From Lumbricus terrestris (lineage: Eukaryota > Annelida > Clitellata > Crassiclitellata > Lumbricidae): a DNA stretch of 64,000 nucleotides. A program made the translations under genes and the position numbers. The notes under the pieces are model-generated. The model ran no database searches. It was not told the origin of the DNA and saw only the letters and a list, made by a program, of their open reading frames with translations. Each line of letters starts with the position of its first letter. The stretch's first letter is position 1. The stretch spans positions 1,609,084 to 1,673,083 of the forward strand of contig OX457053.1 in assembly GCA_949752735.1 (NCBI GenBank), in the 5' to 3' direction. Below are positions 22,788-59,913 of this stretch, piece by piece.

Positions 22788-23313
22788 TCACTTCGTTTGA
22801 ACGTGTGCCTCTGGTGCCTCTTTTTTTTCCAACATTTCTGTTGGCAGATTTACATACACGATTTCACCCGGGTTGTTTGAAGTAGTCGACTTGGATCTTT
22901 GCATTGGAAGAGCGTAAACATCTCCTTGAGCAGTTACTTTGATGGGATGATTAGGCCTATTGTTCGCTCCTGAGACGATACCAGAACGGCCATTAGCATC
23001 TGGCATGGCATATATATCTCCCAGTGGACCAATCTTAGTTGGAGAAGTTGGTTGGGCGCATTTCTGATCGGGCTTCATGTTGTTTGTTTCTTTTGCTAGG
23101 GAAGCGTAGACGCTTCCAGGCTGCTGTTCTGTGGCTCCATCTTCCGATTGGTTAAGATGTAGCGATGAAATCTCCGCGTAATCATCTCGAATATCGTCTG
23201 ATCTTTCTGCTGCAGCGATGGCAGGGTTAACGTATCCATATTCGTTTACAGATGTAATGGCGTATGCATTGGTTGTCCTGTTATGTAATTCCTCTCGATT
23301 ACTTCGCGGATAT
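22788..23313 (-). CDS. Gene I cytoplasmic tail exon
   Basis: This last exon encodes 175 residues. Strict ITIMs ([SIVL]xYxx[ILV]) are SVYASL and IVYVNL. Looser tyrosine motifs are DDYAEI, GDIYAMP, GDVYALP and AYAI. Phosphorylated ITIMs recruit SH2 phosphatases in known receptors; this role is inferred. The phrase IGPLGDIYAMP recurs in gene II (VGPLGDMYAMP) and loosely in gene III, marking a conserved tail segment. The acceptor is TTCAATTACAG at 23314. Confidence 0.85.
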
Positions 23314-26300
23314 CTGTAATTGAACTTGAAACTACACATTTCTCTGAAATATACAAACGATGATCACATGTAGAAAGACACATGATAAAATTGCTATTTA
23401 CTAATGACTTAAACCTACTAGTCAGTGTAGTCACTAGCTACTGGTAAAATGACTGAACAAAGTAAAATTTTAATTGACAGTGACTACATGAGTGCTTATT
23501 TTGTGAAGCGGAATGTAGGCCTACTAGTTCTATAACCTAAGCAGCGACGGTTTCTAGACCTCCGAGAAAGTCGTTGACCCACAATTATTAGACTACTCAT
23601 GCAGTTCCATAGATTTATTCCTTCTACATGTAATTAGATAGTGTCTCGGTAATCAGTAATACATGAAAATTATGAGTCTGCGAAAGCCCAGTCATTGTAG
23701 AATTTATTCTTTCTTGTGTCATTCACCAGTGACTTAAATTGTAGGCCTATTTGCTTTCGCCGAATAGTAGCCTACCATCTGGCAGAAGAGAGCACTTAGA
23801 ATGAATGAATTTTGTCTATCAGCAAAAATTATTTTAAAATATTTACTTGGTAGCTTTCTTTCATGCTGTCTCTCTTGCCGGGTTGGAATTGGTGTCCGGA
23901 GTCACAGTGGTACTTCGCTTGGTGCCGCCCAGTGATATTGTCGCCACGTTTATTTTTTAACCTTATTGCAGCTGTTTTCTTTGGTCGGTGTAGAGTCGGA
24001 AATATGCCTACTCCTAATGAGATAACATTAAATGGGGCTATATAAATCTCCAACCTGATTGAATGAATATCATAATACCCATTTGCTCAGTATAACTGAG
24101 AACATAATTAGTTGCAGTGTGTGATCTTACAGCACGGATCTGTTTTTTGCTCTCAGCACGAAGACGATGAAGCAGATGATTAAAACCATTGCAGCAACGA
24201 GAATTAGAAACCCTAAAAATATCAAAACGTCATAGGCTATCGATTATATTAAGTTGCTACATAGGCTACCACGCTTTCTAATTTATATATAATTTATTAA
24301 AACTAACGACGTTCATTCACTCATTCATTTATTCATTCATTCGGAAACTTATATAGCGCCCCATCTGGAAAAATAATTCAAGGCGCTCCCAACTTTAAGT
24401 TAGGTGAGGAAGGATTCTGGCAGATTCCACGAGTGTCGGCGTAACTCTATAAGAAGGCCATTCCAGACCCCTAGACCAATAACAGAAAACGCTCGATTCC
24501 TCATAGTTGCAGTAGGCCTACGAGCAAAAAGGAGCTAACAGAACCCCCTTTTCAGTAGAGAGTAGCGGACGACGTCCCTTGATACCCGGCATGAACCAGC
24601 ATATCTCTCGAGGATAATGGGTCTATTGGGGGCGAGGCCCTGACAATATCGCCAGACCAGAGCAGCTACCCTGAACTCGATACGATGGCAAATAGGGAGC
24701 CAGTGAAGCTGTTGTATTACATATTCAGGCGAATATGCACAGAGGAACCAATGTGGTTTTCTCAGTAATAATAATTAGTACATAAATCTGTATAATATCT
24801 TCATTGCCAATTAGGGGTATTGTGATATTCGGGCATGTTCGAGCCACCTTCGCAGGCACAGGGATGATTGTTTAAACGAAGTTAAGAAGCTGTAAGTAAT
24901 TTTTATGGATGCGAAATTCTCTGCTTTCGTTATTGACGCTGAAATGTGTGTGTGTGTGTGTGTGTGTGTGTGTGTGTGTGTGTGTGTGTGTGTGTGTGTG
25001 TGTGTGTGTGTGTGTGTGTGTGTGTGTGTGTGTGTGTGTGTGTGTGTGTGTCAAGTTAATCATGGAAAAGGCAATTCACCATAGACTTTGGAACCAGGAT
25101 TGATTGGTCAGTTTCGCTAGGCCTTTAAATGTATGCCAAGAAAATGTTTCCATGTAGTTTTGTGTATCGTAGTCATCTAGCGGAAAAGCTTCCATGTTAC
25201 GGTGATAGATAAAATACGACTTGGGGATTTGCTCAAATTGGAAGCACGGTGTAGGCCTAATTTGGATAAATTATGGCAAATAAGATTAAACCAAGAGGTG
25301 AGCGACCAACTGAATTATCTTGGTAGTTTCACAAACAATTAGCCTAAATGCCAAATGCTCACATAAACTCTGCAGTGTAGAATCCTGCGATCCGTAAGTG
25401 ATACTTTCTACAGAAACAGCTGAGCTGTGCAGCCTAGAGCCTCGTGATCCATGTGTTGTTACAGTATCTTCTTTTAAAACAACTGGAACATAAGGTTTGA
25501 TTTCGACACAATTATTCAAAGAATAGAATAAACATCATCAATTACACAATTCCCAGCTGCCAGGCTTTAACATCTGCTAAGGTGACAAAGACCAGAGTCT
25601 TGCAACAAATGAATATTAATTGATTGATCGAGTCGAACATGCGAGATAATGATGACGTTGACGTTTCAACTACATGTAGAACGCTGAGATCAGTATTGTA
25701 AACGCGGTTCATCTTTAAGCGTGGCTAACTTACAAGTAGTCGATTCCAATTCTGTCTGGATATTTTCAACGGTCGTCTCTGTAGTCAACGCTGATGCCAT
25801 GTCTTGACCTAAATGCATATCGGTAACTTGACCAAGCCTGATTAACTTTAAGCAAGTCAAAACGTAAATGTAGGTTAAGTAAGCCTATACATTGTCAAAT
25901 AACCATTATTTAAAACTGCCAATTTCAAAATTTTACATCCCAAAGGCACCTTTTTATATAATTTTCCTAATCAGGGTTAGCTATTATAGGGAAATCGGGT
26001 AATTTAAAAAACAACACGTAGGCTATAAATCTGAATTTTATCATCGCGACATCAGTTTATAGTTGAAAGGTGAAGGACGAATGTGCATAGAGCTAAAAAC
26101 AGATTGGAGTTTATTACATTATCATATTAAGCTGTAGAAGACCAGTGGCCATAACACCCAGGGTGTCCATAACCCCCCGGGTGACCCTACACCCAGTGCG
26201 CATCCAGATGAGATTGGTAACTCGAAAACCAAAGAGGCGGAATAAACCTCTTTCTTTTGTCCCTTATGTCGGTGCTATAGGCCATATTCATTTTACAAAT

Positions 26301-59800: not shown

Positions 59801-59913
59801 GACGTGATACATGCAAGATATCTGTTCATAAAAATAAAACCATACTTACCGAAGGTAATTACACATAGAATTTGTATTCCAGTTGACCTCCAGTACTTCG
59901 GAATCTGAAACAT
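49663..59913 (-). CDS. Gene III: two-CTLD membrane receptor with amplified tyrosine-motif tail
   Basis: The predicted protein is 742 aa from nine exons: 59850-59913 (signal, MFQIPKYWRSTGIQILCVITF), 57336-57644 and 55883-55999 (CTLD1), 54889-55110 and 53909-54043 (CTLD2), 53484-53549 and 51750-51806 (stalk), 51465-51555 (membrane, VIAAIVIIICIIVIMVLIL) and 49663-50830 (tail). Junctions and phases match gene II and the total is 2229 nt. CTLD1 has NETCVNVSSEIVCYFKGSEE, WQLCSSFNATLPVI, WTAGKQFTYSNWTWID and SEELPYICQ. CTLD2 has TNKCLRFIND, RYWIGLRKKSWRWI and ECITF...AVEC...VLCQ. The membrane exon has three extra codons at its start relative to gene II. The tail is more than twice as long as in genes I and II because of internal repeats. 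Introns carry a SINE, a LINE with a hAT inside, and a MITE. Confidence 0.88.
49902..50740. repeat. 168-bp coding minisatellite
   Basis: The marker GTTCCATGTAGGTTCGATG begins at 49902, 50070, 50238 and 50406, exactly 168 bases apart, with a variant at 50571 (165 bases). Units 49902-50069 and 50070-50237 differ at a single base. Confidence 0.95.
51962..53190 (+). mobile_element. CR1/L2-like LINE 3' end, split by a hAT element
   Basis: The plus strand encodes TTTVQRTAFSVMGPVVWNVL and STGSFYRFLRIFLFDLPG, then GGGAGCGCCTCTGAATAG, CTTGAAGGGTGCTATATAC and a TGAT-type tail. The tail is interrupted by the hAT at 52226-53167 and resumes TGCTTGATTGAATT. The related intron region of gene II (near 37360-37440) lacks it. 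Confidence 0.8.
52226..53167. mobile_element. hAT element with perfect 8-bp target duplication
   Basis: The flanks are TATGTGAT at 52218-52225 and 53168-53175. The ends are CAGGGATGGGCAGTAATT and the reverse of CAGGGATGGGCAAATTAC. Both ends are built of many AATTACAAATTAC words. In the middle (about 52755-52900) a plus-strand remnant of the hAT dimerisation region is readable (LFIQFNAAMPWSAIEE and FEQLLLLKD), with stops and shifts. It inserted into a LINE tail. Confidence 0.92.
54374..54398. repeat. Short interstitial TTAGGG run
   Basis: About three and a half uninterrupted telomere-type TTAGGG units in a gene III intron. Confidence 0.9.
56678..56941. mobile_element. hAT-like MITE with perfect 8-bp target duplication
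   Basis: The flanks are GTCATATT at 56670-56677 and 56942-56949. The ends are CAGTGACGTACCGTAGTC and the reverse of CAGTGCCAGTGGCGTAGCC. It is the same family as 37560-37809, reversed. It lies in the intron splitting CTLD1 of gene III. Confidence 0.87.
57825..57985 (-). mobile_element. CR1/L2-like LINE 3' UTR fragment
   Basis: It matches the 3' end of the LINE at 46077-47330: AAAGCGCTTCTCGAAGCAAG, CAGAAGCGCTACCAGTGCG and GAGAGAAAAGGCAAGTTTT, with the TTGTATT tail to the left. Confidence 0.75.
57990..58565 (+). pseudogene. CR1/L2-like LINE ORF2 remnant
   Basis: The plus strand carries a readable but stop-ridden RT C-terminal region: FGTSKELQKLDYTLL, FSVRDLHVGVSLDSSLPFSE, and later a YLHIHD/EQLH-like segment. 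It matches the minus-strand LINE at 46077-47330 (FGTSKQLKKLEYALL). An inverted neighbour, the tail at 57825, lies next to it. Confidence 0.7.
58567..58645 (-). mobile_element. LINE/SINE 3' tail with (GAAT)n end
   Basis: The minus strand reads GGGAGCGCCTCTGAGGCTC, then TTGAAGAGGCGCTATATAA and GAATGAATGAATGAATC. Confidence 0.7.
59513..59722 (-). mobile_element. tRNA-derived SINE, family 1
   Basis: On the minus strand it has a GGGGCGCAGTGGTGTAGTAG head, the B box GGTTCGAATCC, the body GGCAAGTCCTTCACTCGC and a CTTGAAGAGGCGAAATAAC end. It lies in gene III intron 1; the gene II intron 1 equivalent (about 44725) is empty. Confidence 0.87.

Follow-up and report, generated by a model that had tools for sequence, protein, structure and literature searches.

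The stretch of Lumbricus terrestris DNA analysed here (64,000 nucleotides of contig OX457053.1, positions 1,609,084 to 1,673,083 of the forward strand; hereafter the window) probably holds at least four paralogous genes for type I C-type lectin-like receptors, arrayed head to tail, with an inhibitory/activating pair among them. From left to right the genes stand in the order IV-I-II-III, all on the minus strand. An earlier note had described three complete genes of this kind, and all three were recovered at the same places: gene I at 30653-22788, gene II at 44917-33905, and gene III at 59913-49663. In the predicted proteins, genes II and III have C-type lectin-like domains (CTLDs) that are 81% identical and tails with opposite motifs, namely three immunoreceptor tyrosine-based inhibitory motifs (ITIMs) and no immunoreceptor tyrosine-based activation motif (ITAM) in gene II, and no ITIM and four ITAMs in gene III. 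Similar ectodomains, opposite motifs, and linkage as paralogues are the sequence marks of paired receptors, and these two genes combine them. Since gene II carries ITIMs and gene III carries ITAMs and no strict ITIM, the two are read as inhibitory and activating partners. With polarity taken from the motifs only, gene II and, less surely, gene I look like inhibitory receptors, and gene III looks like an activating receptor with ITAMs in its own tail.

ITIMs and ITAMs are defined by consensus patterns, and SH2 domains have characteristic preferences, such as YEEI for Src, YxxP for Crk, and YxN for Grb2. Ten motif types were tried in the tails, and significance was estimated by shuffling the tail sequences. 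The tail of gene III contains a 168-bp tandem repeat (49894-50689, minus strand; 4.8 copies with 88% matches in TRF) that forms five coding units with the outline YEEI...YTSL-x7-YMEL. A canonical ITAM (YTSL-x7-Y[T/M]EL) occurs in four of the five units (YTSLTVKGHRTYTEL, YTSLVVKDHRTYMEL, YTSLPTKEHRTYMEL, and YTSLPAKEHRTYMEL), which follow the pattern YxxL/I-x6-8(12)-YxxL/I expected in the tail of an ITAM receptor; YEEI is likewise present in four of five. Because the four ITAMs come from one repeat, the shuffling of a single unit is the fair test, and it gave an ITAM with x6-8 spacing in 74 of 20000 cases and with x6-12 spacing in 157 of 20000. No exact ITAM was found in the tail of gene I or II, and no relative of the gene III tail was found among 177635 PDB sequences at E up to 1.

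The earlier note had assigned ITIM-type tails to the whole cluster, which does not hold for gene III, whose strict ITIMs number zero (shuffle mean 0.95) beside its four ITAMs. It could still be argued that all members are inhibitory or of a general ITIM type, the YxxL pairs of gene III being low-strictness ITIMs for SHP or SHIP phosphatases. Indeed, strict ITIMs are present in genes I and II, and phosphatase SH2 domains can bind YxxL sites. However, the missing strict ITIMs of gene III coincide with ITAM spacing and with YEEI, each in four of five units. A uniform ITIM cluster was thus rejected for gene III, and as an account of the whole array it is judged quite unlikely. Because gene III lacks strict ITIMs and has its tyrosine pairs at ITAM spacing, the cluster does not appear to be uniformly inhibitory.

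The strict ITIMs claimed for genes I and II were found again. Gene II has three (ISYSAV, IEYAEI, and ISYTSL), and three or more were reached in 39 of 20000 shuffles; gene I has two (SVYASL and IVYVNL). Other putative docking sites are common to the three tails, including a GDxYxxP-like block (GDIYAMP in gene I, GDMYAMP in gene II, and GDIIYSLP in gene III) and YVNL, YANL, or YASL close to the C-terminal end. These shared elements, together with four YxxP sites in gene I, an excess reached in 5 of 2000 shuffles, would suit multi-adaptor scaffolds, in which YEEI, YxxP, and YxN sites serve growth-factor-like, nonimmune signalling. Such scaffolds are nevertheless very unlikely here. YxxP occurs no more often than by chance in genes II and III, and the same applies to YxN in genes I and II; the ectodomain is solely lectin-like with a natural killer (NK) or mannose-receptor resemblance, and divergent tails among tandem paralogues are a usual feature of immune receptors.

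Under the paired-receptor reading, the proteins would be displayed on immune-type cells and would bind related ligands by a mode other than the classical Ca2+-dependent recognition of sugars. YEEI would serve as a docking site for Src-family kinases, which would then phosphorylate the tails. In gene III, doubly phosphorylated YTSL-x7-YMEL could recruit a Syk-type tandem-SH2 kinase, leading to cell activation, and the repeat array may act as a signal amplifier. In genes I and II, SHP-type phosphatases would instead be recruited to single ITIMs, with a higher threshold as the result. Crk-type adaptors may be attracted by the GDxYxxP-like block of all three tails, and Grb2-type adaptors by the YVNL/YANL ends in genes I and II. 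The net output would then be set by gene II (and gene I) balanced against gene III.

Each of the three genes encodes a predicted leader, one or two CTLDs, a stalk, a membrane helix, and a tyrosine-rich tail. The Lectin_C family (PF00059) was recognized in gene I (61.9 bits, 1.1e-16), gene II (74.2 bits, 1.7e-20), and gene III (68.3 bits, 1.2e-18) against a gathering cut-off of 22.6, and no other Pfam family exceeded its cut-off in genes I-III, which have at most two CTLDs. The conserved disulphide pairs of CTLDs were read from cysteine positions. By these positions the six-cysteine long-form pattern is present in CTLD2 of genes II and III and in the single CTLD of gene I, and CTLD1 of genes II and III retains the N-terminal and outer pairs and lacks the inner one. 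The earlier note had described the CTLDs as free of calcium-sugar motifs, and no EPN, QPD, or WND was found in models I, II, and III. Between genes II and III, identity is 78% (249/321) in leader plus ectodomain, 81% (211/260) in the CTLDs, and 42% in the tail.

The leader exon comes first and the membrane exon follows the CTLDs in genes I, II, and III, an order that predicts type I topology. In this regard, the proposal of type I receptors with a signal is borne out by the exon order, but the predicted leader of gene III is weakly hydrophobic (all 19-residue windows at or below 1.5). Charged residues are absent from the 19-residue core of the membrane helix in all three genes. Such a core would offer no hook for a DAP12-type adaptor, which agrees with a built-in ITAM.

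A resemblance of the domain set to NK-type lectin receptors had also been noted and is upheld, as CTLD2 of gene II finds NKG2D as its best match (1.7e-9), followed by PLA2R (1.7e-8). The clustering of CTLD genes is a further likeness to the vertebrate NK complex (Ly49, NKG2, KLR). NK lectin receptors are type II proteins with no cleaved leader, and close paralogues among them signal oppositely; the activating ones use ITAM adaptors via a charged membrane residue. Unlike this group V, the genes described here have the leader-first order of type I proteins, with predicted leaders, and a membrane core without charge.

The mannose receptor family (PLA2R, LY75, and the IgY receptor) is similar in its type I topology and its CTLDs, and it provides the closest PDB match of the gene I domain, which aligns over nearly its full length with the IgY receptor (1.1e-19) and also matches LY75 and PLA2R. 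The members of this family have 8-10 CTLDs, cysteine-rich and FN2 domains, and short endocytic tails, whereas genes I-III have no more than two CTLDs and Lectin_C alone above cut-off. From this likeness one may propose endocytic or scavenger receptors of mannose-receptor type, whose YxxL/I/V sites would serve in AP-2 sorting instead of immune signalling. The type I topology, the best matches of gene I, and the frequency of YxxL/I in the tails (3 in gene I, 5 in gene II, and 14 in gene III) are in favor of this role. The number of CTLDs and the lack of a further family above the Pfam cut-off are against it, and AP-2 sorting needs neither a fixed x7 spacing nor an acidic YEEI; on balance such a role is unlikely.

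The gene models were obtained by cross-comparing stop-to-stop frames, aligning the loci at the DNA level, and placing exon boundaries by GT-AG and phase. They were selected for openness, which bears on the use of in-frame joining as evidence. Gene III, of activating type, has nine coding exons (59913-59850, 57644-57336, 55999-55883, 55110-54889, 54043-53909, 53549-53484, 51806-51750, 51537-51465, and 50830-49663), all open, with 2211 nt, 736 aa, and two CTLDs. Gene II, of inhibitory type, also has nine (44917-44854, 41271-40963, 39331-39215, 38907-38677, 38506-38366, 37991-37929, 37253-37197, 35673-35601, and 34409-33905), with 1560 nt, 519 aa, and two CTLDs. Gene I has six (30653-30593, 29935-29630, 28476-28348, 25482-25363, 24212-24131, and 23343-22788), with 1254 nt, 417 aa, and one CTLD. 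All three lie on the minus strand and are consistent in phase, and all 21 introns are GT-AG. The phases are common to the three genes, as had been claimed of homologous exons: 0-1 for the leader, 1-1 for the interior ectodomain exons, 1-2 for the membrane exon, and 2-0 for the tail. The exon-by-exon length differences between genes II and III (0, 0, 0, 9, 6, 3, 0, 0, and 663) are every one a multiple of three.

The coding sums are also multiples of three, as were the 1299, 1569, and 2229 nt given earlier for genes I, II, and III, but the sums themselves differ. The surplus of 9 nt in gene II and 18 nt in gene III fits alternative in-frame TTGTCAG acceptors located at these distances upstream of the membrane exon, and the surplus of 45 nt in gene I was not reproduced. 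Taken together, what the earlier note had observed is partly confirmed, and its interpretation is partly supported. A short element, SINE-like by eye, recurs at genes II and III and at other places in the window (9990-10128, 41622-41799, and 59509-59722). No match to Rfam at the gathering threshold and no tRNA by ARAGORN was found.

The single CTLD of gene I (28348-29935, minus strand) is composed of a half like exon 2 of genes II and III (48-53% identity) and a half like their exon 5 (36-41%), and gene I has no equivalents of exons 3 and 4. Since the ectodomain exons are all of phase 1-1, the dropping of two preserves the frame, and the hybrid domain is consistent with an in-frame loss of two such exons. 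The possibility that exons 3 and 4 were merely overlooked was rejected. A profile scan between the two CTLD halves gave no clear remnant, and the joined domain aligns nearly end to end with known CTLDs, which favors a deletion or a fusion. An equivalent of the sixth (stalk) exon, which could have accounted for the surplus of 45 nt in gene I, did not turn up in a simple pattern scan of 28347-25483. A hAT transposase dimerisation domain (27600-28016, plus strand, 2.3e-9) lies within an intron of gene I.

Tandem duplication is evident as the origin of the paralogues as modelled. Blocks of DNA with 72-86% identity between genes II and III cover the ectodomain and membrane exons, the intron flanks, and the 5′ flank. 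In the 338 codons compared, which span the leader, the ectodomain, and the membrane exon, the nonsynonymous rate dN is 0.137 and the synonymous rate dS is 0.306, giving a dN/dS of 0.45 (Fisher p 2.5e-5, with counts rounded). By exon, dN/dS is 0.33, 0.73, 0.23, and 0.49 for CTLD1a, CTLD1b, CTLD2a, and CTLD2b, 1.18 for the leader (20 codons), 0.28 for stalk 1, 2.36 for stalk 2 (18 codons), 0.45 for the membrane exon, and 0.65 for the tail. Substitutions in the CTLD exons are distributed 35/23/47 over the three codon positions across 257 codons (p 0.016), and gene I compared with gene II or III gives a dN/dS of 0.34-0.72. Genes II and III are under purifying selection, and the genes look functional.

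These data also bear on the idea of a decaying family or an assembly product, which would make functionless relics of both the repeat array and the introns with their many transposons. Transposon remnants are present in the window, gene I has no exons 3 and 4, and the third repeat unit of gene III has lost two tyrosines, as such decay would produce. Against these stand 24 open coding exons in frame across three genes (in models selected as open), the exon length differences between genes II and III in multiples of three, and the dN/dS of 0.45 with its p of 2.5e-5. Decay or misassembly is accordingly regarded as highly improbable.

Several observations weigh against the paired-receptor reading. 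Genes I-III are predicted models, known here from DNA, and some of their splice signals are less usual, with donors of the GTTYGT type (GTTTGT and GTTCGT) in genes II and III and GTTTTA at exon 2 of gene I. The ectodomain identity of genes II and III (78%, and 81% in the CTLDs) is lower than desirable for a common ligand. The four ITAMs of gene III are not independent, having a common repeat origin, and the shuffles ignore both this and the ten motif types tried. In unit 3, one of the five, the first two tyrosines are replaced by F and C. The repeat units differ among themselves at a dN/dS of 0.65-0.99, so that their support is limited to the persistence of the tyrosine motifs in four of five units and does not extend to a strong constraint on the whole unit. 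The ITIM count of gene I is weak, as 765 of 20000 shuffles reach two. YxN is at chance level in genes I and II (423 and 983 of 2000 shuffles) and in excess in no tail. The division between ITIM and ITAM is not absolute either, given a near-ITAM in gene II, YVSL-x7-YMEV, whose final V fails the strict pattern and which suggests that the ITAM-like pair may be ancestral.

The fourth member, gene IV, is absent from the earlier note. It is partial and consists of two CTLD exons on the minus strand, one at 6127-5855, with an uncertain donor, and one at 5190-5080. Its first exon, compared as a translated frame, resembles exon 2 of the others (blastp 1.3e-12 with gene II, 1.7e-12 with gene III, and 3e-11 with gene I), and its two exons together score 19.0 bits (E 0.0025) with Lectin_C, under the cut-off of 22.6. 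No clear membrane or tail exons of gene IV were found in the window, where profile scans clearly match only genes I, II, and III. The remainder of gene IV may lie past the left edge of the window, and the cluster may extend beyond it. To the right of gene IV there is an element resembling a long terminal repeat retrotransposon (10815-15522, plus strand), with PNMA/gag-like, reverse transcriptase, RNase H, and integrase domains in its frames, flanked by two stretches with 97.7% identity over 131 bp. Reverse transcriptase remnants at 18651-19409 and 46777-47118, both on the minus strand, are under the Pfam cut-off.

As the earlier note had stated, the genes could not be tied to a named family. 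Searches of a protein database returned no homologues, either at E up to 0.001 or 1 (the 8000 candidates sharing most words in each case) or at E up to 1 (72 candidates), a null result of little weight as the share of animal proteins in the database is unclear. NCBIfam gave nothing over cut-off for gene II. In the literature, the available extracts on the oyster Magallana (Crassostrea) gigas describe CgCLec-HTM, a lectin whose membrane helix is C-terminal and whose hemITAM acts via Syk, ERK, and Rel (PMC12842671, PMC13027682). It is grouped with single-domain lectins and has QPS and WHD motifs, and a bivalve table in the same extracts includes some lectins that bind without EPN, QPD, or WND (PMC12842671). 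CgCLec-HTM and CgCLec-TM1 are thus comparable to the present genes: both are membrane C-type lectins of invertebrates, and a hemITAM in the tail couples them to Syk. CgCLec-HTM also has the same type I order. As far as these extracts go, CgCLec-HTM has half an ITAM, whereas here there are one or two CTLDs that lack EPN, QPD, and WND, full tandem two-tyrosine ITAMs, and adjoining ITIM paralogues.

A second likeness is offered by the fester co-receptors (FcoR) of Botryllus schlosseri, a clustered multigene family of type I receptors whose tails vary among paralogues between ITIM, hemITAM, and core YxxI/L/V motifs, according to the extract consulted (PMC12065747). The FcoR ectodomains consist of immunoglobulin (Ig) and sushi domains, and each FcoR has a partner of the fester family; for Hydractinia allorecognition candidates, the same extract reports ITAM and ITIM domains (PMC12065747). 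Clustering, type I topology, and tail motifs that differ between paralogues are common to FcoR and to the present genes, but by the published description the two are set apart by CTLDs here and Ig/sushi domains there, and by a full ITAM here and a hemITAM there. The extracts of two other papers, on an oyster Siglec homologue (PMC5877582) and of general scope (PMC9505182), add little. Within these partial sources, a hemITAM in the tail of an invertebrate CTLD receptor is already on record, and so are invertebrate ITIM/hemITAM families. The combination of full tandem ITAMs with an ITIM-bearing close paralogue on type I CTLD receptors was announced in none of the titles or abstract openings among the matches listed.

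It is possible, if tentative, that a nonvertebrate animal evolved its own paired C-type lectin system. Its activating ITAMs would form a variable-number repeat in the receptor's own tail, the copy number of which could set signal strength genetically, in opposition to a twin that bears ITIMs and whose ectodomain is closely similar. The best-known examples of activating and inhibitory lectin receptors in pairs come from the NK cells of vertebrates. A linked, leader-first pair with closely similar lectin-like ectodomains, ITAMs built into one member and ITIMs into the other, would represent an independent or older solution to the threshold problem that the NK paired lectin receptors address, and it would provide a compact locus where repeat number, motif type, and ectodomain are separable for testing.

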